A stretch of 64,000 nt of DNA from Cyprinodon diabolis (Eukaryota; Chordata; Actinopteri; Cyprinodontiformes; Cyprinodontidae): positions 36,627,111 to 36,691,110 of the forward strand of contig CM060081.1 in assembly GCA_030533445.1 (NCBI GenBank). The letters run 5' to 3'. Below, one piece after another: positions 8,379-51,600 of this stretch; the stretch's first letter is position 1; every line of letters begins with the position of its first letter. A program made the position numbers and the translations under genes. The notes below the pieces were generated by a model. The model had not been told where the DNA came from and ran no database searches. It saw only the letters and a program-made list of their open reading frames with translations.

Positions 8379-9331
8379 TGTCGTGTATTATCTCTCTTCT
8401 TAACGACTTAAAGATTGGGACTAAGTTTTGTAAAAATTCAAAGTTCTTAAAAGCTGTAGAAAAAGTCTTCAGACACTGATAAAAAATTAGGCAGAGGCAA
8501 CTGAGTCCAGGTCCAGATTGTTTTATTGCAAAATACAGATAAAACACCCGAGATGCGTACCGGTCCACATCTGACTTCCAAACGGAGACAGTCCCACTTA
8601 TATTCACTCCCGGGGCTCGGGGCTCTTTCATCTTGGTGGAAGACCCTCCTCCAAACCATATTTTATATTTTTAATTGAAGCCTTTCTTTGATATATCAAA
8701 GCTTTTTCTTTCACAAGTCCTAGTGACATTACTTGTAGATCATGATGACATTTATTGCTACTACATCATAGTCTTAATCATCAATATGTCCAAACAATGT
8801 TTTCATCCAGTATGACTTATGATCATAACATCACATCAAAAAAGGTCAGCATGAGTTTAAAACTCAAGGTCCCAGTAAAACCCTCACTTTCTGTGCGACC
8901 AGTACTGCATAGTGTGCTTTGACGATGACAACTCACTTTATCACAATTAGTTCAGCTTAGCTGTGCAGCCCTGAACAACCCATCCTCAATGCGTCTGACT
9001 TACAAACAGGACTCATTTCTGCACCCTGGTTTTCAGAGGCCTCAAATGGCTTCAAATTCCCTGCAATGCTCCTGTTCTTTCGCTCACTCTAGGTATTTTT
9101 CCCACCCTGGCCTTATCTTACAGACTTCAAGGTTGCGCCCCACAGCTGCAGCTGCAGAAGCCTTTTACACACACACACTGCTTCTGTATCTCTTCATATT
9201 CGGTGGCGCACATTCTTTTGGACTCTGTGACCTGTATAACATAAATGTATTTAGTGTAAAACATTTATTCAATATGTAAAACATGTATCCAATATATTCT
9301 AATCATTGGTGTAGATTAATTTACTTCATCA
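8379..9331 (-). repeat. ERV1 3' LTR (953 bp)
   Basis: Minus-strand U3-R-U5 beginning TGATGAAG at 9331 and ending GACGACA at 8379. TATAAG box at 8597-8602 and AATAAA at 8522-8527. It carries a 114-bp segment (8653-8766) that the 5' LTR lacks; the rest is collinear. Confidence 0.95.
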
Positions 9332-9342
9332 TTCCCCCCTTT
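9332..9342 (-). other. ERV1 polypurine tract
   Basis: Minus-strand AAAGGGGGGAA directly abutting the 3' LTR, the primer for plus-strand DNA synthesis. The same tract abuts the 3' LTR of ERV2. Just upstream is a perfect 7-bp hairpin stem, TTGATCC/GGATCAA. Confidence 0.9.
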
Positions 9343-9960
9343 GATCCTAAAAAGGATCAACTCAGTGATTGTCAAAGTGAAATACTATACTATAAATGTG
9401 AAGTTTCAAAAATAACTGCTGTTTATATATTTTGCACACCAAACTAGAAGTGAGACCAAAACACACCATATACTTATAGTGAGTGATATAAAATGTGGTG
9501 ATTACATGATAAAATGTAAAAAATGGAGAACGTCTTCAAAAAAAGAGGGATCTCCCCCCCCCTGGGCTCACTTATGAGGATCTTTTCGTCGTTGCTTACT
9601 TTTTTTTTGTAGAAAGGTTTTCTAACTTCGTTTTTTCGGCAGAGGAAAATGTCAATGCCCAAGCAGACTCTTGTGCCCCGAGGTCACCGCATTCCCTCTG
9701 CACGGGTGTGGTTAAACACCCATAAATAAACCAAGAAAAGCTTCATCATTCCTAGACTATGCCAGGAAAAGCACATCATCCAATGGTCAATTGACCTTCA
9801 ATACAACCAACCTAGGAGTAACCATGTGGCACTCTCCTGCACAGTACTTGTACTGTCACATATATTACACAATTATTTTGTCAGTTATTTTTAGCATTGG
9901 TATTCATAATCCTCCATAATCCCATTGTCCTTTATATCCAGTATGGTGTTGTAGTTGAGA
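9343..9960 (-). other. ERV1 3' untranslated region
   Basis: Non-coding stretch between the accessory gene and the polypurine tract. No significant open frame. It contains the hairpin next to the tract and otherwise nothing I recognise. Confidence 0.6.
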
Positions 9961-10596
9961 TTAATAATAGTGCGGGCCCCCGTTTGGGCCCCCATGGGGA
10001 TAGGGAGCCATATGCCGTTGATCAGTGGTCAGCTGCAACAGCTGCCCTTGCAGGTTGATAATGGTCTGCCGTGCCTCTTGAAGTTGTTGTCTTAGCTCCA
10101 AATTTTCTCGGGTCAAACGCTGATTCCCAGCCTTTACTTTGCGTTTGTACATGGTGCGGCGCAACAGTTCACAGGGTCGACGTGAGTAGGTGTGCATCAG
10201 ACCCTTCATTAACTTGGAATAAACCTCCGTGCTCATAGAAGTGATTTCAGGCTTAAGGTCATCGTCGGTTTTGTACAATTCCAAAGGATGAGCCAAGAAC
10301 TTTGCAACATGGCGAGCTTCCGCAGGGGTAAGCACTATGTCATCTGCTATGACAACAGGAGGTGGAGTGATAGGCCGCGTTTCGTGTAACTCAGCCAGCA
10401 TGCCTGAAGTGGATGGCAGCTCCTGAAGCAATCTGAAGGGCGGTGGTGGTCGTCGATCCTCCGGATTCTCGGGACTGGCAGGGGTGCTGTTTGGGCCGAA
10501 ATCGATCCTGAGGTTCCCAGGTGATGGCGGGTTGGACAGTGGCTTCCCTGTAGGTGATGGTAGTTGATCATCTGGCTGCCTTTTGGGTGTCATCAT
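9961..10596 (-). CDS. ERV1 3' accessory gene, bZIP-like protein (211 aa from first ATG)
   Basis: Open reading frame between env and the 3' LTR, a position used for regulatory genes in complex retroviruses. The N-terminal 80 residues are rich in Pro/Ser (SPENPEDRRPPPP). A central block, VIADDI to PEITSMS (83-122), is conserved with ERV2. The C-terminus has a basic stretch (146-160, RRTMYKRKVKAGNQR) followed by heptads: d positions L161, L168, A175, L182, L189; a positions N165, L172, I179, L186. This is a leucine zipper with an a-position Asn, and the whole resembles a bZIP, although the classical N-x7-R signature of the basic region is not exact. The tail is Gly/Tyr-rich. The frame is open upstream to a likely splice acceptor (AACAG^G at 10654), so translation may start earlier. 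Function unknown; a nuclear regulator is my inference. Confidence 0.75.
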   Translation of the reverse strand: MMTPKRQPDDQLPSPTGKPLSNPPSPGNLRIDFGPNSTPASPENPEDRRPPPPFRLLQELPSTSGMLAELHETRPITPPPVVIADDIVLTPAEARHVAKFLAHPLELYKTDDDLKPEITSMSTEVYSKLMKGLMHTYSRRPCELLRRTMYKRKVKAGNQRLTRENLELRQQLQEARQTIINLQGQLLQLTTDQRHMAPYPHGGPNGGPHYY

Positions 10597-11003
10597 AGGT
10601 TTGTTCCAACCCGAAGGTGCGACGCCTGGCCCCCCTGCCGGGTCTTCTGGCTGCCTGTTGGGAACATAGGGGCCTGCAGCCTCCTCTACTTGTGTGCCTA
10701 CTGACGCCTGTGTAAAGTATCTCTCTCTATTGTTCTCTAGTCATTCCTTGGGGTAATAACCTTCCTTCATAAGTTTTCTCCATTGTCAATCAATCTGCAT
10801 TTGGAGACATAATAAGGCATTCTTAGATTCCATCTTAAGGCATATTATCTCCTAAATCTATAGATGAGTCAGCATGCAAATTACTGTATCTTCGTGAGTA
10901 AGTATATGAGTCTTTGTTATGCAAATTAATTTACATATATACAATGTTGTTATTAAAGAAATGCACGTACCTGGTGAGGGTGGGATGTGATCATGGTTAT
11001 GTT

Positions 11004-12986
11004 TTATATCTCTTGGTCCAATTGTATCTCTACAACCGGGAACTGACCAGTTAAACTTACAACCAGTCTTGAGACCAGTCCCCGAACAAGGGGTATGATG
11101 CAACAAATAACTATCAATATGATCAATATTACTGCTCCTAGAATCACCCCTGCGGCCTTAAGATATTTTCCCCATCCAAGCTTATTGACCCAATCCCAGA
11201 ATCCCTTCAACTGAGTGTTCCAATTAGATCGTAGCACATGCTCATCTCTCATGCGTTTCATTTCCTGTAGGACTCCTGTGAGGCTGCCATTTACATCTGT
11301 ATGCATAGGAATCAAAGTACAACAATCTTCTCCTATATGATCGCATATCCCCTAATCCCCAGCCATACAGGATTCTAGCACGAACCTGTTTTGCAGAACC
11401 ATTAGTGAAGTGGCATGCAATTGTTCCTTCACCAGATCCATGCCCTTTATTGTAAAATTTATAAACCTTTGTTGATTATACCATAGGAGATTCACCCATC
11501 TACTATTTCGAGCTGTGTACTGTGCATTGACGATATTTCCCCAAATTGGTACCGCACCAGCCGCTCTTCCACTTTCTATCCAATCACTCCCTATGGCAAC
11601 CTGTTCTTCAGGTACTCCATATGGGATCTGATCCCAGGTAATATATACCTCATCTGATGTTTTCCACTCGTGTTTGACGGGAGTACTTCTTTTAGCGCGG
11701 TTGGTTATTTCGTTAGATGTTTCTTTAATACCTTCTGGATTAGTTACTATTAACTTTAGTTGTCCTGTCAGCATTACTGGTGCACAGATGCCTTCCCACA
11801 GAGGGGGCAGTGTGGCTAACATCTGTGTTTCTTTGTGACACATCCAAAAAATGTCACCCAAAGGGGCAGATCCCTTTGCCATGCTCAGTATTCGATATTG
11901 AGATACGCTTGAAGGTTGGAACTCATAGATGACATGACCCCCATCTGGTATTACTTGTTCACAACACATGGTAGCTTTTAAACTAGTTTTACAAAACTTA
12001 ATGTGGTGGGTGGAGTTTCCATCCTCAGTCGGTGGGAACCATGTTCTATTACTACATATCACCAGTCTATCTGCTGTCCACATTTGGCTAGAGGTCCTTT
12101 TAGTCATTTCTTCCAATTCTTCCCCTCGGGCTATACAGAACGGAAAAATCAGGTTAGCCGGTTTTTGTACTACTGGTGGGAGGGAGAACCTACTCATTAC
12201 ATCGTTCACTGAGGTGGTCAGCGCTCTAGGGCATATTGTGTGATCTTTTGACAATGATGCAAGACCTCCAGCCATCTGCATGGCACAGTGAGCAAAGCAT
12301 TCCGTTACGTCTGGGCAGTCGCCTATTTTACTTCCGGGTATTATCTGAAGGGCTGGTAATTTTTTAACATTATAGCAGGCTATGCAATCATCTCTAGGGT
12401 GCTTTTTAGCTATGAACATTGTCTGGACAGAATACTGAATCCATTGTTGGAACATGTTGTTTTCCCAGTAAGCCGTTTTTAATTTATCTAGATCCCTTTT
12501 CTGTCTTCTATTTACTAATTGTACCACACTATGCGCTCTTTCTACTGTCATTATCTGTTTTGTTAATATGTTCTGGCATATGTTTGTTTTGCATCTTACC
12601 TCAATGATCACCATCCCATCCCCACGACAGTCCATGCTTCGTGGAATTCCAAGCCAATGTTTCCCCATTGACTTCCCTAAAATTTCTTCAGACATTACAT
12701 AATCATACCCTTTGATTTGCACATGCATTAGTGATATATTCTCTCCATTATTATTACTGATTACCCCTTGGTTAGTGGCTAGTGTTACCATTGCTAAGGT
12801 GCATGTTTGTGTTTGACGCATTAAATGTGAGTGTGTATTGTTAGTAGTAACCTTAATAAGATCCCCACTTGTTAACCCACAAAGGGTTAACAAAACAAGA
12901 AAATTAGTCAGAGTTGGAAGAAGACGCATGCGAGTAATGCCCAGACGGCGATGGAGTGGGCGGGGCCGAGACGATCGACGGCCCAC
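11004..12986 (-). pseudogene. env: ERV1 env (envelope), one nonsense mutation
   Basis: Envelope glycoprotein gene. It opens with a basic leader and hydrophobic signal (FLVLLTLCGLTSG). The surface part is Cys-rich, with two dibasic protease-type sites (NRRQKR about residue 165 and NRAKR about residue 435). The transmembrane subunit has an LQNRFVLE immunosuppressive-domain-like stretch, a CX6CC motif (CDHIGEDCC) and a membrane anchor (GVILGAVILIILIVICCII). The frame is interrupted only by TAG at 11352-11354, just before CX6CC; downstream it stays open to 11004. Without the stop the length is typical of class-I retroviral Env. The start overlaps the end of pol by about 80 bases in another frame, so expression would need a spliced mRNA. 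Confidence 0.9.
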
Positions 12987-15900
12987 TTGTCGCGGAGGAG
13001 GAAGAGGAAAGGGAAGGGATCAGAGGGGATGGTGCAGGTGAGGGATGGGAAGGGGACAGGACTCCACCAGCATCTGATGGGTCAGAAGGAAGAAGTTCGT
13101 CCAATGCCTGAATGACGGATGGATCAGGGTCAGACCCATTAGAGCTCTGAGCGGCAGAAGGATCATCATCATTGCCACCAGAGTCAGAAGGCGGATGGGA
13201 AGCATAAGAATGAACACTGTCATCCTCAGAGTCCCCTGGCATTGGTGATTGGCGGGCTGCCAAGCGTGCCGAGCGTCTTTGGACGCCGGACGTTGAGGGG
13301 AGTGGGGACGCATCAGTGCCCGACACCGGTGCAACATCTAAAGTCTGTGAGCTAGTGGAGGGGTGCTGCGGAGGGAGACTTGTTGCTGCCCTGTCAGCAT
13401 GCGCAGAGCCCGTCGGTCCTGGAGCAAGGCCAGGTGGGTCTGGAGGCCGATGCCTGGTGCAGTGGTTCTTGTGGAACCAGAAGGGCTTACCTTCAACTTT
13501 CAGGGCAGTGGGAGTGGTAAGTACAACTTTAAAGGGGCCTTCCCTACGAGGCTCGTTCCACTGACGTCTAAAGACTCGTATGAACACACTGTCACCAACT
13601 TGAACGTCTCTGACGTCCACTGGAATGTGTGTCTCGTCCCGGCTGTGGGCTGCTTTCACCTGTTGAAATATAAGTCTGTGAATGCGGGTTAAGGATCTGA
13701 GGTAATCCCCTAGTTCGCGTTCAAGCTGTGCCAAGGAGACCTCCTGCAGCAGGGGTCCACGAACCTGTGGGAGAGGCATCGGTCGACCTGTAAGCATTTC
13801 ATGAGGGGTAAGATGGGTTATGCGGTTAGTTTGGGAACGCATTGCCATCAATGCAACAGGCAAGGCGTCAACCCAAGTCAAACGGTTGTTGCTGTCAGCT
13901 ATTATCTTAGCTATCTTTGATTTCAGCACTCCGTTAGCTCGTTCCACGGATCCCTGTGACTGGGGATGATACACACAACCAAACTTTTGTGTTATGCACA
14001 ACAGTTTGAACATTTGCTGGATCACCTGTGAAACAAAATGAGGTCCATTATCAGATGATATGGTATCAGGCATGCCAAATCTGGGAAAAACTTCTTTACA
14101 CAAAAACCTTGCTGCTGCTTTGTGGTCATTCTTAGCAGTGGGGCATGCCTCCACCCATCTGCTAAACCTACAGACAACCACCAACATATACCTCTTTCCC
14201 TGAACCCGAGTTATCATGTCAACGTAATCCATCATCAGATGGCGGAACGGACCGTCTGGCATGGGGATATGTTTTAAGGGCTGGGTAAACATTTTACGCA
14301 CATTATACTTAGGGCAATGTGGGCATAAGGCCAATTCTCTGTCTACCATAGATGTCATATAAGGTGACCACCAGACTGCCTGTAACTTTTGGACAACTTG
14401 GGCTCATGAACAATGATCAGGTCCATGCATTATTTTAATGGCTGTTGGTAATAAGGACAACGGTAGTACAAAATGTCCTCGAGAACTACGCCACAACCCA
14501 GCGTGGGGGTGTGTTAACCGAGCCGCCCCCCTTTGTACCCACAGGCATTTCTCTGCTTCAGATACGTTATTTTGGGCCTCTATTAATGAGGCTAGATTAG
14601 TAATAGGTTCACATTCAGCTACATGAACCATTGGTCCCTGCACTACTGATCCTGCGGCTTCTTTAGCTGCCTCATCTGCCAAGTTGTTTCCTATGGGAAT
14701 AGGTGTTTTTGCTGTCTGATGGGCTGCACATTTTACAATAGCTAATGCAGATGGAAGTTGCATAGCTTTAATTAATTCTACTACAGCTTGTCCATTTGTC
14801 ACTGGGGTGCCATCTGTTCTAACGAACCCTCGTTGTTTCCAGATGCTAGCATTTATACGGCATACCCCATATCCATATGCACTGTCAGTATAGATTGTCA
14901 CTCTTTTACCAGTAGCCAGTTTACATGCTGCTGTTAATGCTTTTTTTCTCTGCCAACTGGGCAGAGCAAGGTTGATCTAAGCTCATTGATTGTACTTTGG
15001 TAAAGGTCCCATCGGGGTTTAGTTGGACTATTCCATATCCAGCTCTATTCCCTGTCTCACCTCTGACACATGATCCGTCTATGAACAGTGTCAAATCAGA
15101 TGGGATTGGATGATTGTATAAGTCCTCCCTTACCTTCATGAAGGTGTCCGTCTCCTGGAGACAATCATGGGGCTCACCTTCTGTGGGCAATACCATTCTT
15201 GTGGCTGGATTAATGGTGGTACAGCGTTGTATTGTTAAGTCAGGTCCTGAAAGCAGAACTTCATAACCTGTTCGACGAGCTTGGGTTATCACAAAGCGTG
15301 GACTGGTGAGCAGTGCATGTAATTGATGTGATGTGTACAAAATAATAGGGTGGCCCATAGTAATAACTGAGGCCTTTTTGTATGCGAAGGCTGCTGCTGC
15401 CAAGCCCTGGTAGCAGGGAGGCAGACCTTCTTCGACACCATCTAATTTTGTGCTGTAATAATAAATTGGCTGTTTACCTGTGGGGGTGTCTTGCATCAAT
15501 ACTGCACATGCATACCCTTGTCGCTCAGCCACATAGAGATGGAATGGTTTGCCATAATCTGGATTGGCCAGAGCAGGAGCAGTTTGGAGATCTTGTTTCA
15601 GCAGCTGGAACGGACCTTCTGCTTCATCTGTCCATTGTAATTGAGCCGACTGGTGTCCTTGACCTGCGGCTTTAATCAGTGCTCTCAGTGGAGCCGTTTT
15701 GATGGCATAATCACACACCCACGGTCTGCTGTATCCTGCCATGCCAAGGAAAGACAACATGTGACCAACAGTCTGAGGTTTGGGCATTTGAGTTATGGCT
15801 TCTAGTTGGGACGGTGCAATACACCTCTTGTCCCCACTGAGTTGCCTGCCGAGATACTCCACTGTTTGCTGGCAGAATTGCAATTTTTGTTTACTTACTT

Positions 15901-17557
15901 TGTGTCCTCCTTCTGCCAAAGCAGTCAATACTGTAATGGAGTCTCTTTCACACTGCTCTTTAGAAGCAGAACAAATCAAAATGTCATCAACATACATCAA
16001 CATTGTGGATGGTATGTCAAGGTGATTTAAGTCATTTGCCAGTACACGATTGAAAATTGATGGTGAGTGTACAAAACCCTGTGGTAATCGTGAATAAATA
16101 TATTGTTGGCCTTTGTACGTAAATGCAAACAAATACTGGGAATCTGGATGGACCGGTACACTGAAAAATGCTGAACACAGATCTATCACAGTAAACCATT
16201 TGGTGCCTGGGGGTATATTACTCAGTAGTGTGTGTGGGTCGGGTACTACTGGTATCTCTTCTGCTACAATAGCATTAATCAATCTTAGGTCATGCACTAA
16301 TCTGTAGTCATTACTGTTGGGCTTTCTAATGGGAAAAATTGGGGTGTTACAGGGGCTTACCTTTTGTTTAAGGACTCCTGCTGTTTCTAATCCTGTAATA
16401 ATAGGCTGTATTCCTTCTACTGCCTCTCGTCTAAGTGGGTACTGTCTCTGAAAGGGTAATTTAGCATTTGATTTGATGGTAAATTTGATGGGGTCTGCTG
16501 ATTTTACTAACCCTACATCTGTTTTACTTTTGGACCATACCTGCTCTGGGACCTGTTCTAATAATGATTCATGTTCTGCAGCCACTGCCATTTGTCTTTT
16601 CCCAGGAACTTTAATGTGTTCTGCTATTACTTCATCAGCTTGTGTACATGAGATTTTGAAGAATAGTCCATCTTTTGATATGCTGATGCTGTCCCATGCT
16701 GTGTCGACCCATTCGGTGACTTGCTTGGCTTCTTGAACCATGGGTCCCAGGTCATGTGACTCATATTTGTCTGCAATCAGTAATGTGACATGTGGTGCTG
16801 AGTTGGTTACCTGGAACCATTCTGCTACATCTTTATCAGGAAATGTGACAACAGCTGGAGCTCCTTGTGGTCCAACCATTATGTCAGCGTATTGGATGAC
16901 AGTTGTTTTGTTGTTAATTTCTTCATCCCAACTTTTCTCGTAGTCTTCGTGTGTTTTGCCTTTGTCATAAAACATGGTACAATGGAGAGGAAGAAAAGGT
17001 TCTTTAGATTTCTTGTAGTGATTCATTATCAGGGGTCTCCATGTTTCCCACTCCAGTTGGAGGAAAGAGGTTGGTGATGTGAGTTTCAGCCAAAATACTT
17101 GGTCTTCTGGCTCATGACTTGTTATCTGGGGGGTCATTTGCAGGCCCATTGGCATCATGTAGGCTTCATTCTTGTCTGTTGCTTCAAACGAAATTCCATT
17201 AGGGGTACATTTAATTTTTGCATTAAGCTGGCACAGCACATCTCTACCCAGCAGATTTATGGGCGTATCTTCTGAGTAAAGTAGTGGTGCATACACAGTC
17301 TTTTCACCTATGATCATGAGAACTGGCTCAGTCATGGGTATTATTTGGGTTTTCCCAGAGAAACCTACTGTTCGAATCTTTGATGCTGAGAGAGGCAGGC
17401 CAATTCCACTCTTTCCTATACAGGAGTAAGCTGCTCCTGTATCAATCATGAAGCGATGATGGCTGTCATATATAGTGACATCAATGGTGGGTTCTGTTTG
17501 TGGTCATTGGGTTAATACAGGTAGAATGGCCTCTCCATCAGGTTTCTCTGGGCACCC
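12904..17557 (-). pseudogene. pol: ERV1 pro-pol (protease, extra 2H-like domain, RT, RNase H, integrase), broken
   Basis: In frame with gag after its UAG. Taking the Met at 17449 as residue 1, the order is: protease (DTGA at 3-6, LLGRD 66-70); an unusual domain at about 118-285 with LHCT (155-158) and PHVT (219-222); reverse transcriptase (LPQGF 455-459, YVDD 486-489); connection; RNase H; integrase with an HHCC zinc region, a DDE core (MMDYVDM, SSDNGPHF, GSVERANG) and a GPF module. A Ser/Pro/Asp-rich tail of about 170 aa follows the integrase and overlaps env. Lesions: TGA at 17504-17506 between gag and protease, one extra base in a seven-T run (14941-14947) inside RNase H, and TGA at 14404-14406 in the integrase zinc region (CGA in ERV2, a CpG transition). 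It cannot make full Pol. Confidence 0.93.
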
Positions 17558-19975
17558 CTATTGCCAATACATTTCTTGTCCTGCTCCATAGGTGGCTGGT
17601 CCAGCAGTAGGGGGCTGAGGTCCCATCCATGGGTTAGTGGGGCAGTCTCTTTGCATGTGTCCAACTTGTCCACATCCCCAGCATTGGAGTCTCCCACGCT
17701 GTTGTCCCATGTCTGGACCTGCCTGGGGCATCTGCTGGTATTGGCCTTGAGGGGGTCTTCTTGGGGCTCCTTGTGATCCCCTCCATCTTCCCCTCACGGG
17801 TGGCCCCCCTCGTCCCCCTCCGAATGTTGCTTGTTGGGGACCTCCTCCTTGGTTTAGATGCACATGAATAGGAGGGACTGGTTGAGGCTGGGTCTGCTGT
17901 GGCAGGGCTCCTCCCACAGGTGGCGCTGTTGGATATTGCATCTGCTGTGTGGGCGGAGGAATGACAGGAGACACTACTGGTGCTTGTACAACTGCCTCCC
18001 CTGTTGGTGCACCCTCAGTTGGGGGTGTGGCAGCCACAGTCAGTGCTGCTTGATGTTTAGGCTTTTCTTTTTCTTTCTTTGCCTTGGACAATTCCCCAAT
18101 CTGCAGCTGGGTTAACTTGGTGGCCAGCATCTTGCTTTGGTCCTCAAAGGCCCGTTTTTCGGCCCGATGCATGTTTACATAGTGTATAACATGCTCAGAG
18201 AAAAGAGGCCAATCCATCTTCATGAGCCCCACAACTCCATCCAGTTTGGCTTGTACTTCTTTGGGCATGGCCTCCCTGATGTAGGTTCTGAACAGGGGGC
18301 CAGATGTTTTCAGTTCATTCCCATCACTTCCAGTCTCTGTTTTCCATTTCTGTTGGAACCTGTGCAGAAACTGGGCGGGGCTTTCATCATCCTTCAGACA
18401 TTCCTGTCTCAGCTTGGTTGGATCGCTGCAGGTGGGGTATTTGTTCTTTAAGGCTTCCCACACCTTGGGTCTTATTTGGTTGAATGGTATCTTGTCATAC
18501 TGGTGTGAGGTCATGACCCTTGGAAGCTGGGCTTCGTCAAACACCTCTCTGGCCGCTGAGTGTCCTGCTGTTTTGATTAGCAGCGCCTTGATGTCTCCAG
18601 CTGCCAGATTGATGCCTCCAGTGATTTCTTCCAGCTTTTCTATCCATCTGTCAGCACCATCTGCCAATGGGGTCAGCCTTCCAGCAAGTGTGATCATGTC
18701 CATAAATGACCATGGCACATATCTGTCTTCATGAGGTCCTTTAGACAGCAAGGGAGCCATATAGGCCCCTCCTTGATCTTGTTCTGTCTTCTGCTGTCGC
18801 GCTTTGGACCTGGTCACCATTGGTCTAGGGCCGCTTTTTACTATTTGCAGATCCACGTCACATTCAGCTGCGAGTGGCTTCTGTTCTTTTGCCACCGGCC
18901 TGCTTCTTCCCTTGGACCCCTCATGGACTGGGTTTGCTGTTGGCAGTATGTCTGAGCCTTCAATGTCCTCCCATTCAGACACATCATCTCTTTCCTCCTC
19001 ATATTCCATGTCTTCTCCCCCTCTCCTTCCTGCCTCTCTGATCAGGGACAAATTCCGTGGGCTTGGCAGGTCTGGGCAATTAGTTTTGGCCTCTATTATA
19101 AGCTGCTCCGCTTCCATTCTCTTCAATTTTTCCAATTCTTCATCTCGTCTTTTCTTCTCCTTTTGTTTTTCTATTGTCTCTTTTAAATTTTTTAATTGTC
19201 TTTTTTGTGCTTTCTCTTCCAACTCTTGCTCCCTGAGTCGTACAAATGTTTCCGTCAATTCCACCAAGTCCTGGTTTATCATTTCTGCCAGTGATTCGGT
19301 TTCATCCAAAACTAACTCGGTCTTGGGATCTGAGTGGCTTTTATATGTCGACTTGGTGCTGGGCTCTGAGCGGCATGTGGAGCCTTTTGGAAATGGTGAA
19401 TGTCTGCGACGTACTGGGGGTAGGGAACGGCTAAGGGTAGATTTTCTCCTTACTTCTGTGGTTCTATTCCATTCGTCATAGTCACTGCTGTAGCCATACT
19501 CTCCCTGCTGTGTGTTACTCATTTCTTTTTCTGTTTCTTCCTCTTCTTCTTCTAAAACTAATTTAAGTTGTCCTGTAATCTTTCCCTTGCTACCTGACTC
19601 TATCACTACTGGGTACTGACCTGTAACGCTAGGGCGATAAGGTGGTGATTGATAATCAGTGTAGTCAGGGGCTGTTGGGCTCTTTTGGTGTTCTACTTTA
19701 AAATATCGCAGGATGTCTCTCTGTTCAGCATGTTTCTGTTTTTTATGCAAATGCATTCGGTCCCGTTTCTTATCTTTATTTCTCAATCTTTCTTCAACTT
19801 CATCACAGCATGAAGGATCAAAGCTGCCCTCTTTAGGCCAACGATTTTTCCCAGATGTCATCTTATGCCATTCGGTCATGCATTTTTGAATTTTGCGTTT
19901 ATTAGATGGGTGTGTCATTATTACCAGTTTGGGAGGCGTCAGCCCCCCAGTCTGTTTGCTCATATTGGTTCCCAT
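17558..19975 (-). CDS. gag: ERV1 gag polyprotein (805 aa), intact
   Basis: Structural polyprotein. MGTN start with Gly2 available for myristoylation; basic matrix-like N-terminus; PTAP late-domain motif at 100-103 (the nearby SPPY is a broken form of the PPPY found in ERV2); acidic run EEEEEE about 142-147; charged coiled coil about 226-297; capsid about 405-640, resembling gammaretroviral p30 by its position and the QFLHRFQQKW stretch; Pro/Gln- and Arg/Gly-rich linker; one CCHC zinc knuckle at 765-778 (C-X2-C-X4-H-X4-C). At 805 aa it is longer than typical gammaretroviral Gag, mostly because of the charged segment before capsid. It ends in UAG followed by GGG in the same frame as pol, which fits stop-codon readthrough. 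The whole frame is open even though pol and env are damaged. Confidence 0.93.
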   Translation of the reverse strand: MGTNMSKQTGGLTPPKLVIMTHPSNKRKIQKCMTEWHKMTSGKNRWPKEGSFDPSCCDEVEERLRNKDKKRDRMHLHKKQKHAEQRDILRYFKVEHQKSPTAPDYTDYQSPPYRPSVTGQYPVVIESGSKGKITGQLKLVLEEEEEETEKEMSNTQQGEYGYSSDYDEWNRTTEVRRKSTLSRSLPPVRRRHSPFPKGSTCRSEPSTKSTYKSHSDPKTELVLDETESLAEMINQDLVELTETFVRLREQELEEKAQKRQLKNLKETIEKQKEKKRRDEELEKLKRMEAEQLIIEAKTNCPDLPSPRNLSLIREAGRRGGEDMEYEEERDDVSEWEDIEGSDILPTANPVHEGSKGRSRPVAKEQKPLAAECDVDLQIVKSGPRPMVTRSKARQQKTEQDQGGAYMAPLLSKGPHEDRYVPWSFMDMITLAGRLTPLADGADRWIEKLEEITGGINLAAGDIKALLIKTAGHSAAREVFDEAQLPRVMTSHQYDKIPFNQIRPKVWEALKNKYPTCSDPTKLRQECLKDDESPAQFLHRFQQKWKTETGSDGNELKTSGPLFRTYIREAMPKEVQAKLDGVVGLMKMDWPLFSEHVIHYVNMHRAEKRAFEDQSKMLATKLTQLQIGELSKAKKEKEKPKHQAALTVAATPPTEGAPTGEAVVQAPVVSPVIPPPTQQMQYPTAPPVGGALPQQTQPQPVPPIHVHLNQGGGPQQATFGGGRGGPPVRGRWRGSQGAPRRPPQGQYQQMPQAGPDMGQQRGRLQCWGCGQVGHMQRDCPTNPWMGPQPPTAGPATYGAGQEMYWQ

Positions 19976-20635
19976 GGCTACCAGCAGTCACTCAACCGTC
20001 AGGTCCTGTGATTTATTCACCAGCCTTTGTAATCCTTAGTTAATTTTATCTTAACTGGTTCTGCTCTCTCCAATACAGATTGTGTTTATTTTTCTTTAGT
20101 TTCTTTTTCTAGTTAATCTACTTCCTAATTTTTAGATCTCTTCAATTTTGAGTTAAGATCTTTAATAAAAAAAAATTGTAATGTTATTTTGCACTTCCAC
20201 TAATTTTTATACCTTATATATTTTATTTTATGTAGACTATAGTTTGTAATAATATATGCTTATAATATCTTTATCTTATAATGCTTACAACTTTTTCCAA
20301 TCTTATTTAGGAGCTTTGTTAATTTATTTCATTCTCATAACTCTGTGTTTTTCAGTTACCAATTCTGTTTTCCAATCCTTATTAATTTTCAGGTTATTCT
20401 TTTTAACTATATTTTGTAATAATTAATTCTGTTAATTTATTAGTATGCCTTTTAAGTCTTGTCTTATTCTTAATAATAAATAACTCTCCTATTTATTATT
20501 CTTATTCTTTATTCTAATTCTTCTTATTTCTATCCCCTCTCTCTTACTCCCTCTTAATAGTTAACTCTTTCACACTTCACATAGACAAAGACACACAAGA
20601 CAAATGATTATATATTTTACAGTGCACTTCTATTT

Positions 20636-21010
20636 TTCCTCACTGTTTCCTACAGTGGCACATACGTTTTCCCTGCTGCCCGGATTCACCCAGATAACTG
20701 GAAATGAATAGACGTCCTCCGGTAGGTCGAGCGGTACTATTCTCCGATTATCGCTTAATCGGTAATATTCTGGCTATCCCTTAGCCTGGCTATCGCTTAG
20801 CCTCTCAATACCTAATACAACACAAATTCCTCACTGTTTCCTACAGTGGCACATATGTTTTCCCTGCTGCCCCGGATTCACCCAGATAACTGGAAATGAA
20901 TAGATGTCCTCCGGTAGGTCGAGCGGTACTATTCTCCGATTATCGCTTAATCGGTAATATTCTGGCTATCCCTTAGCCTGGCTATCCCTTAGCCTCTCAA
21001 TACCTTAATA
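20636..21010. repeat. 191-bp tandem duplication in ERV1 leader
   Basis: Two head-to-tail copies, 20636-20826 and 20827-about 21010, both beginning TTCCTCACTGTTTCCTACAG and nearly identical. Each contains short repeats of TAGCCTGGCTATC type. ERV2 has one related copy in the equivalent place. Confidence 0.9.
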
Positions 21011-21470
21011 CCAATACCTAATACTACATAAGCCGTCTCGTGGAGCACGCCGACTACCTTAGTCACCGATACCCTCACGTAACACGCGTACCTATATGTT
21101 CCGGATTTATGGCTTCCACAGGCTATGTCAAACGCTTTGACCAATCTGTCCCTTTACCAATTATCCGCTCAGAACATCACGTGTTAAGCTTAACTTATTC
21201 ACAAAATAATTCCAACAGTTCAAATACAGAATAACACAATCATTAATAACACTCAAACCATGCATTCACATATACATTCATACGTACCTGGACCCTTCCT
21301 CAGCTTAGTCTGCCTTTGGCATATTCTTATATAAATTCTTATCAAATTTGGAAATTACTTTATTAAATTTGGAAAACTAGGTTCTTTTAGAAGAGCTTTG
21401 TGACGCCTGACACCCACAAGCAGTCGCCGGAGGCTGGTTCCCCACTAATTTAGAATATTACAACAAATTA

Positions 21471-21480
21471 GCTCACCTTT
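21471..21480 (-). promoter_or_regulatory. ERV1 leader splice donor
   Basis: Minus-strand AAAG^GTGAGC with the exon ending at 21477, about 90 bases after the primer site. ERV2 has GAAG^GTGAGT at the equivalent place. This would generate subgenomic env and accessory mRNAs. Confidence 0.7.
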
Positions 21481-21563
21481 AACCGGTGAATTTCTGGGCC
21501 CGTTTGGGGGTTCCCCGCCTCCGACTGCCGTCTGCAGGTTGGTCCGACGCCGGTAGCTTGCTT

Positions 21564-21581
21564 CTCCTGGCTGGCTCGCCA
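21564..21581 (-). other. ERV1 primer binding site, tRNA-Arg
   Basis: Minus-strand TGGCGAGCCAGCCAGGAG, three bases after the 5' LTR. It is fully complementary to the 3' end of vertebrate tRNA-Arg(ACG), ...CTCCTGGCTGGCTCGCCA as I recall it. It sets the priming of minus-strand DNA. Confidence 0.8.
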
Positions 21582-21584
21582 AAT

Positions 21585-22505
21585 TGTCGTGTATTATCTC
21601 TCTTCTTAACGACTTAAAGATTGGGACTAAGTTTTGTAAAAATTCAAAGTTCTTAAAAGCTGTAGAAAAAGTCTTCAGACACTGATAAAAAATTAGGCAG
21701 AGGCAACTGAGTCCAGGTCCAGATTGTTTTATTGCAAAATACAGATAAAACACCCGAGATGCGTACCGGTCCACATCTGACTTCCAAACGGAGACAGTCC
21801 CACTTATATTCACTCCCGGGGCTCGGGGCTCTTTCATCTTGGTGGAAGACCCTCCTCCTGACGATGACAACTCACTTTATCACAATTAGTTCAGCTTAGC
21901 TGTGCAGCCCTGAACAACCCATCCTCAATGCGTCTGACTTCATAGTCTTAATCATCAATATGTCCAAACAATGTTTTCATCCAGTATGACTTATGATCAT
22001 AACATCACATCAAAAAAGGTCAGCATGAGTTTAAAACTCAAGGTCCCAGTAAAACCCTCACTTTCTGTGCGACCAGTACTGCATAGTGTGCTTTGACGAT
22101 GACAACTCACTTTATCACAATTAGTTCAGCTTAGCTGTGCAGCCCTGAACAACCCATCCTCAATGCGTCTGACTTACAAACAGGACTCATTTCTGCACCC
22201 TGGTTTTCAGAGGCCTCAAATGGCTTCAAATTCCCTGCAATGCTCCTGTTCTTTCGCTCACTCTAGGTATTTTTCCCACCCTGGCCTTATCTTACAGACT
22301 TCAAGGTTGCGCCCCACAGCTGCAGCCGCAGAAGCCTTTTACACACACACACTGCTTCTGTATCTCTCCATATTCGGTGGCGCACATTCTTTTGGACTCT
22401 GTGACCTGTATAACATAAATGTATTTAGTGTAAAACATTTATTCAATATGTAAAACATGTATCCAATATATTCTAATCATTGGTGTAGATTAATTTACTT
22501 CATCA
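21585..22505 (-). repeat. ERV1 5' LTR (921 bp)
   Basis: Starts TGATGAAG at 22505 and ends GACGACA at 21585 on the minus strand. Identical to the 3' LTR over the first 274 bp of the plus-strand view. An 82-bp copy (21859-21940) of its own downstream sequence (22094-22175) then stands where the 3' LTR has 114 unrelated bases. The remaining part has two substitutions. 953-114+82 equals 921, so no other net length change exists. Confidence 0.95.
21803..21808 (-). promoter_or_regulatory. ERV1 5' LTR TATA box
   Basis: Minus-strand TATAAG within AATATAAGTGGG. The polyadenylation signal AATAAA lies about 75 bases downstream (21728-21733), a layout expected for U3-R. Confidence 0.65.
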
Positions 22506-48612: not shown

Positions 48613-51600
48613 GGGTGCCCAGAGAAACCTGATGGAGAGGCCATTCTACCTGTATTAACCCAACGTCCACAAACAGAACCCACCATTGATGTCACAATAT
48701 ATGACAGCCATCATCGCTTCATGATTGATACAGGAGCGGCCTACTCCTGTATAGGAAAAAGTGGAATTGGCCTGCCTCTCTCAGCATCAAAGATTCGAAC
48801 AGTAGGTTTCTCTGGGAAGACCCAAATAATACCCATGACTAAGCCAGTTCCCATGATCATAGGTGAAAAGACTGTGTATGCACCACTACTTTACTCAGAA
48901 GATACGCCCATAAATCTACTGGGTAGAGATGTGCTGTGCCAGCTCAATGCAAAAATTAAATGTACCCCTAATGGAATTTCTTTTGAAGAAACAGACAAGA
49001 ATGAAGCCTACATGATGCCACTGGGCCTGCAAACAACCCCCCAGATAACAAGTCATGAGCCAGAAGACCAAGTATTTTGGCTGAAACTCACATCACCAAC
49101 CTCTTTCCTCCAACTGGAGTGGGAAACATGGAGACCCCTGATAATGAATCACTACGAGAAACCTAAAGAACCTTTTCTTCCTCTCCATTGTACCATGTTT
49201 TATGACAAAGGCAAAACACATGAAGACTACGAGAAAAGCTGGGATGAAGACATAAACAACAAAACAACTGTCATCCAGTATGCTGACATAGTGGTTGGAC
49301 CACAAGGAGCTGCAGCTGTTGTCACATTTCCTGATAAAGATGTAGCAGAATGGTTCCAGGTAACCAACTCAGCACCACATGTCACATTACTGATTGCAGA
49401 CGAGTATGAGTCACATGATCTAGGACCCATGGTTCAAGAAGCCAAGCAAGTCACCGAATGGATTGCTACAGCATGGGACTGCATTAGCATGTCAAAAGAT
49501 GGACTGTTTTTCAAGATCTCATATTCACAAGCTGATGAAGTAATTGCAGAACACATTAAAGTTCCTGGGAAAAGACAAATGGCAGTGGCGGCAGAACATG
49601 AATCCCTATTAGAACAAGTCCCAGAGCAGGTATGGTCTAAAAGTAAGACAGATGTAGGATTAGTGAAATCAGCAGACCCTATCAAATTCACCATTAAACC
49701 AAATGCTAAATTGCCCTTCCAAAGACAGTACCCACTTAAACTAGAGGCAGTAGAAGGAATACAGCCTATCATTACAGGATTAGAAACAGCAGGAGTTCTT
49801 AAACCAACAATAAGCCCCTGTAACACCCCAATTTTTCCCATTAGAAAGCCCAACAGTAATGACTATAGATTAGTCCATGATCTAAGATTGATTAATGCTA
49901 TTGTAGCAGAAGAGATACCAGTAGTGCCCGACCCACACACACTGCTGAGTAATATACCCCCAGGTACCAAATGGTTTACTGTGATTGATCTGTGTTCAGC
50001 ATTTTTCAGTGTACCGGTCCATCCAGATTCCCAGTATTTGTTTGCATTTACGTACAAAGGCCAACAATATACATATTCGCGATTACCACAGGGTTTCGTA
50101 CACTCACCATCAATTTTCAATCGTGTACTGGCAAATGACTTAAATCACCTTGACATACCATCTACAATGTTGATGTATGTTGATGATATTCTGATTTGTT
50201 CTGTTTCTAAAGAGCAGTGTGAGAGTGACTCCATTACAGTGTTGACTGCTTTGGCAGAAGGAGGACACAAAGTTACAGCAGACCGTGGGTGTGTGATTAT
50301 GCCATCAAAACGGCTCCACTGAGAGCAATGATTAAAGCCGCAGGTCAAGGACACCAGTCGGCTCAATTACAATGGACAGATGAGGCAGAGGGTGCGTTCC
50401 AGCTGCTGAAACAAGATCTCCAAACTGCTCCTGCTCTGGCCAATCCAGATTATGGCAAACCATTCCATCTCTATGTGGCTGAGCGACAAGGGTATGCATG
50501 TGCAGTATTGATGCAAGACACCTCAACAGGTAAACAGCCAATTTCTTATTACAGCACAAAATTAGATGGTTTCGAAGAAGGTCTGCCTCCCTGCTACCAG
50601 GGTTTGGCAGAAGCAGCCTTCGCCTACAAAAAGGCCTCAGTTATTACTATGGGCCACTCTGTTATTCTGTACACATCACATCAATTACATGCACTGCTCA
50701 CCGGCCCACGCTTTGTGATAACCCAAGCTCGTCGAACAGGTTATGAAGTTCTGCTTTCAGGACCTAATGTAACAATACAACGTTGTACCACCATTAACCC
50801 AGCCACAAGAATGGTATTGCCCATAGAAGGTGAGCCCCATGATTGTCTCCAGGAGACGGACACCTTCATGAAGGTAAGGGAGGACTTATAAAATCATCCA
50901 ATCGCATCTGATCTGACGCTGTTCGTAGACGGATCATGCGTCAGAGGTGACACAGGGAATAGAGCTGGATATGGAATAGTCCAACTTAACCCCGATGGGA
51001 CCTTTACCAAGGTACAATCAATGAGTCTAGATCAACCTTGCTCTGCCCAATTGGCAGAGATAAAAGCATTAACAGCTGCATGTAAATTGGCTACTGGTAA
51101 AAGAGTGACAATCTATACTGACAGTGCTTATGGGTACGGGGTATGCCATATAAACGCTAGCATCTGGAAACAACGAGGGTTTGTTAGAACAGATGGCACC
51201 CCAGTGACACATGGGCAAGCAGTAGTAGACTTAATAAAAGCTATGCAACTTCCATCTGCGTTAGCTATTGTAAAAGGTGCAGCTCATCAGACAGCAAAAA
51301 CACCTATTGCCATGGGAAATAACTTAGCAGATGAGGCAGCTAAAGAAGCCACAGGTTCAGCAGTGCAGGGACCAATGGTTCATGTAGCTGAGTGTGAACC
51401 CATTACTAATTTGGCCTCCTTAATAGAAGCCCAAAAATAACGTATCTGAAGCAGAAAAACGCCTATGGGTACAAAGGGGGGCAGCTCGGTTAACACACCC
51501 CCACGATGGATTGTGGCGTAGTTCTCGAGGACATTTTGTACTACCTTTGTCCTTATTACCGACAGCCATTAAAATAATGCATGGACCTGATCATTGTTCA

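Follow-up and report, generated by a model that had tools for sequence, protein, structure and literature searches.

An endogenous retrovirus (ERV) of the fish Cyprinodon diabolis carries, between the protease and the reverse transcriptase (RT) of its Pol polyprotein, an additional domain that is very probably a 2H phosphoesterase domain, closest to CNPase, and that is probably also catalytically active, to judge from its conserved residues and a predicted model. The provirus lies in the 64,000-nucleotide stretch of contig CM060081.1 that was analyzed as a whole and is called the window here. The domain core (window positions 16604-17104, minus strand, like all features of this provirus; Pol-frame residues 134 to 300) is part of an open frame of 860 codons (14921-17503) in which Pfam also recognizes a retroviral aspartyl protease (PF00077, E 8.2e-9; 17213-17497, frame residues 3 to 97), an RT (PF00078, E 1.5e-31; 15842-16330, from frame residue 392), and an RNase H-like match. 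The two H-x-[T/S] motifs that characterize the 2H superfamily are present as LHCT (16976-16987; His codon 16982-16984, Thr codon 16976-16978), directly followed by YDKGK, and as PHVT (16784-16795; His codon 16790-16792, Thr codon 16784-16786), with a His-to-His spacing of 64 residues; an earlier note on this DNA had drawn attention to both motifs and their spacing, and they are borne out in the frame. The interval between the two Pfam matches is 294 residues, of which the domain takes up about 167.

Conservation in other fish and among genomic copies

A protein search with the window domain alone retrieved relatives from Takifugu rubripes and T. flavidus, a second search from the Takifugu protein additionally retrieved Sparus aurata and two Epinephelus coioides proteins, and a third homologue search gained no further protein. 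The five relatives are 60, 55, 47, 45, and 41% identical to the window domain. Both H-x-T motifs are kept in all six sequences of the family (the window domain and its five relatives), and the tyrosine five residues after the first His is likewise invariant; loss of the motifs in related proviruses, which the earlier note had named as evidence against its proposal, was thus not seen among these relatives. By Pfam, the order protease-domain-RT recurs in a Takifugu protein (P0002) and in the Sparus protein (P0004), and in P0003 an RT follows the domain, with no protease match. At an E value of 0.001 or less, Pfam recognizes no protease or RT in the two Epinephelus proteins, one of which terminates with the domain, and the order there is not established. 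The placement of the 2H domain between protease and RT is found in at least three fish lineages.

A search of the C. diabolis genome (936 contigs, 1.22 Gb) gave 797 candidate copies, 150 of which were scored; all were at least 91% identical to the query, and 146 of the 150 had no stop within the matched stretch. An identical open frame of 1,550 codons around the domain was listed for more than 30 of the scored copies, and this frame, shared by so many, is a sign of a recent burst. The window itself holds a second copy of the domain on the opposite strand (48940-49596, plus strand; 93% protein identity). When the genome was searched with the Epinephelus domain, the 150 candidates scored among 750 all lay at 49 to 52%, and a second family was not indicated.

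Selection was estimated from 60 fetched copies, 43 of them distinct, as the ratio of nonsynonymous to synonymous divergence (dN/dS) over 903 pairs. Mean dN over the domain was 0.030 and mean dS was 0.210, giving a dN/dS of 0.145, a value that is biased downward because the copies were chosen by protein similarity. The four catalytic residues were kept in 58, 60, 60, and 60 of the 60 copies, respectively, and synonymous change was seen at both catalytic Thr codons. An earlier run with 30 copies, also chosen by similarity, gave ratios of 0.14 for the domain, 0.125 for its core, 0.331 for the linker, 0.267 for the protease, and 0.45 for the RT, the last of which may be inflated by flank indels. 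The choice of copies lowers the ratio, but the same four residues are also kept in other fish, at 41 to 60% domain identity. The 2H domain has been under purifying selection while the lineage multiplied.

Relation to CNPase and other 2H enzymes

When the family was compared as a profile with CNPase, both motifs aligned in register, and similarity extended across the inter-motif stretch. The two-lobed, internally duplicated 2H fold was obtained in one medium-confidence model of five from AlphaFold2 (AF2), and fold scores against solved structures were 11.9 for CNPase, 10.6 for RICH, and 8.7 for the next family; the folds nearest to the predicted model are those of CNPase, RICH, and an RNA-ligase domain. 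This single usable model matches 2H folds rather than some other architecture, and the motifs, the profile comparison with its controls, and the predicted fold support the earlier note in its proposal of a 2H-type domain nearest to CNPase and RICH between protease and RT. The viral domain has in common with the CNPase catalytic domain and goldfish RICH its two H-x-T motifs, the first of them LHCT, an aromatic residue five positions after the first His, a likeness that runs through the inter-motif stretch, and a predicted fold that matches along almost its entire length. CNPase and RICH differ from it in that identity in the structural alignment is 10 to 16%, that the inter-motif region of the viral domain is shorter, and that the viral domain is embedded in Pol.

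A number of results weigh against this assignment. PF05881, the CNPase family of Pfam, was not listed at an E value of 10 or less for the window domain or its relatives, and the domain is therefore filed as a CNPase-like 2H domain and not as a member of the Pfam family. In scans of Pfam, NCBIfam, and PHROGs with single sequences, matches were weak or absent and no curated family exceeded its cutoff, non-2H families appeared at similarly weak E values (PF14972 at 0.047 and a reductase model at 0.098), and in the match to TIGR02258 the first-motif part of the domain aligned to the second half of the profile. Sequence searches of the PDB, with a single sequence and with a profile, returned no 2H protein. 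In a control with single-sequence windows, a weak one, the top four of 59 places went to windows overlapping the Sparus domain; the best window of the Takifugu domain was level with a Gag window and so not distinct. AF2 with full-length rows reached a predicted local distance difference test (pLDDT) value of 31.9, and four of the five models of a second AF2 prediction lay at 30.0 to 32.8. The family has A, T, or S where CNPase has Arg307, a position that precedes the second His by two residues, and the first His is replaced by Tyr in 2 of the 60 genomic copies.

The failure of single-sequence searches to place any 2H family above the cutoff would suit a chance occurrence of two H-x-T motifs within an ordinary protease-RT linker. 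We regard this as very improbable, given the profile controls, the predicted fold, and the retention of the motifs throughout the family and in nearly all copies; conservation refutes it, short of a mistaken fold prediction combined with another cause for the conservation. A different origin is suggested by the identity of the weak 2H-type profile matches, which were to PF08302 and TIGR02258 and not to PF05881, and by the low structural identity to CNPase and RICH: the domain might come from another branch of the superfamily, of the tRNA-ligase phosphodiesterase or LigT/ThpR type, and not from vertebrate CNPase. This is unlikely, as CNPase and RICH have the top fold scores and as both motifs are in register in the profile comparison, in which CNPase was the only 2H family. 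Capture of the CNPase-like domain from a cellular gene is plausible, with no donor gene nameable because the divergence is too great. A search of the C. diabolis genome with a CNPase profile retrieved no ERV copy; its matches were three exons of a single contig, which we take to be the host CNPase gene. Upstream of the kinase-like part, that gene has a long exon frame (L033, 1456-3060, minus strand) containing PEPEKPAESV-type repeats.

Proposed activity and use

In CNPase, according to PMC4643303, a 2',3'-cyclic phosphate is converted to a 2'-phosphate by two His and two Thr residues, mutants at these residues lose almost all activity, Phe235 serves in base stacking, and the R307Q mutant retains its kcat with a higher KM (Table 1 of that article). 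The position of Phe235, five residues after the first His, is occupied in the viral domain by Tyr88 in 6 of 6 family sequences and 60 of 60 copies. Since the four catalytic residues and an aromatic residue at this position are kept, and since R307Q CNPase retains its kcat, an active phosphodiesterase would be the likeliest state. It is improbable that the 2H fold is kept for structure or binding, as a Pol spacer, an RNA-binding element, or a decoy for a host partner, with catalysis not needed; the replacement of the first His by Tyr in two copies and the lack of conservation at Arg307 would fit such a role, but all four catalytic residues, like the stacking aromatic, belong to the invariant positions across fish domains of 41 to 60% identity to that of the window.

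In this lineage of class I fish retroviruses, the CNPase-like 2H domain, situated in Pol between protease and RT, would be made within Gag-Pol and hence enter the particle with RT. As an active enzyme with two His and two Thr residues, it would act as CNPase does, hydrolyzing the 2',3'-cyclic phosphate (or a related 2'-linked phosphodiester) on RNA or a nucleotide so that a 2'-phosphate and a free 3'-OH are left. Its most likely use would be the processing of RNA 3' ends that nucleases leave during infection, the main alternative being cleavage of a host signaling nucleotide. We assign the RNA-end role tentatively, as not far short of an even chance; it is slightly favored by the closeness of the predicted fold to CNPase and to an RNA-healing enzyme. 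It is somewhat unlikely that the enzyme is aimed at a host immune nucleotide, such as 2',5'-oligoadenylate (2-5A), cyclic GMP-AMP (cGAMP), or a similar molecule, and dampens innate signaling as proposed for some RNA virus 2H proteins. Purifying selection is compatible with any active role, this one included, but the predicted model comes closest in fold to CNPase, RICH, and an RNA-ligase domain rather than to the 2H proteins of immune evasion. Teleosts are not known to have OAS, and 2-5A would then be an unlikely target.

Few extra enzymes are known from within retroviral Pol, dUTPase being the one usually cited. The CNPase-like domain, conserved in a large family that includes many near-identical copies, represents a clear case, open to testing, of an RNA- or nucleotide-processing enzyme acquired by a vertebrate retrovirus, and one may ask which substrate in the fish cell makes the domain worth keeping. 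It is possible, if rather doubtful, that a CNPase-type enzyme is fixed in the protease-RT interval of Pol throughout one whole lineage of epsilon-like fish retroviruses, travels in the particle, and has cyclic-phosphate RNA ends or a nucleotide signal of the host as its substrate there. If so, the polymerase polyprotein of these retroviruses would include a hydrolase for RNA ends or second messengers.

Viral counterparts and the surrounding provirus

The best viral fold match in BFVD was Q2VF30_1 (E 3.9e-9, 31% identity, template modeling [TM] score 0.76 over the query), which, on the strength of this modeled similarity, probably carries the same domain as the window Pol. Q2VF30_1 may be the Pol of salmon swim bladder sarcoma virus. 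Further fold matches were to proteins of walleye dermal sarcoma virus (A4GTG3; E 3.3e-6, 17%) and walleye epidermal hyperplasia virus 1 (Q9WHI8; E 3.7e-6, 16%), the former in agreement with a report of a 2H domain in that virus that is cited in a review. Both proteins are labeled Envelope polyprotein; if this label is correct, the 2H domain there is in Env and not in Pol. Nidoviruses and rotaviruses have 2H domains as well (PMC9503650); these resemble the domain described here in superfamily and in being virus encoded but belong to other virus groups and gave no significant fold match to it, torovirus polyproteins and a coronavirus ORF2 being weak matches only (E 0.35 to 1.3). A scan of viral contigs produced 26 pattern matches, none of which was confirmed as a relative, and a phage search produced 8 records at chance level, 5 of them listed at an E value of 6.

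PMC4977317 states, citing Basta 2009, that epsilon-like sequences of ray-finned fish occasionally have open reading frames for CNPase or macro domain proteins, and CNPase or 2H domains in fish retroviruses had been reported previously (Basta 2009 and Mazumder 2002, as cited in PMC4977317 and PMC9503650). The belief in the earlier note that no such retrovirus had been described is thus not supported; the kind was noted in 2002 and 2009, according to these reviews, and the domain is not a first. The reported domains are, like ours, cellular-type CNPase or 2H domains encoded by fish retroviruses, but the reviews describe them as additional open reading frames or state no position. No description of the order protease-2H-RT was identified in the literature as available to us, including PMC4299795, PMC8672886, PMC4746887, and PMC2684134, with Basta 2009 and Mazumder 2002 represented through the reviews only. 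The present analysis adds the family in the C. diabolis genome, the domain's position in the protease-RT interval, its conservation, the selection on it, and its predicted fold.

The provirus extends from long terminal repeat (LTR) to LTR over approximately 8379 to 22505. The order of its Pfam matches, namely, gag zinc knuckle, protease, RT, RNase H, and integrase with a murine leukemia virus (MLV)-type C terminus, is the class I pattern, and its pol region is split across several frames. A gag frame with the zinc knuckle (PF00098) occupies 17558-19987, and the protease-RT frame is followed by frames with an RNase H match (PF00075; 14404-14976) and with the integrase core and MLV-type integrase C terminus (PF00665 and PF18697; 12904-14403). 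Two other frames, at 9961-10740 (259 codons) and 11352-13019 (555 codons), had no convincing Pfam match; the latter may be env. The 5' LTR (21585-22505) and the 3' LTR (8379-9331), their extents being those of the repeat match, align in two stretches, one of 569 bases with 3 mismatches and one of 274 bases that is free of mismatches, and this near identity therefore marks a young insertion. An 82-base stretch occurs twice in the 5' LTR, 235 bases apart (21859-22175), and once in the 3' LTR, and a stretch of approximately 110 bases of the 3' LTR (8653-8762) is mostly absent from the 5' LTR. Directly after the 5' LTR is a primer-binding-site-like stretch starting with TGG (21564-21581), which would fit the 3' end of tRNA-Arg, and the interval from the 5' LTR to the gag frame contains a 135-base stretch in duplicate, 192 bases apart (20679-21005).
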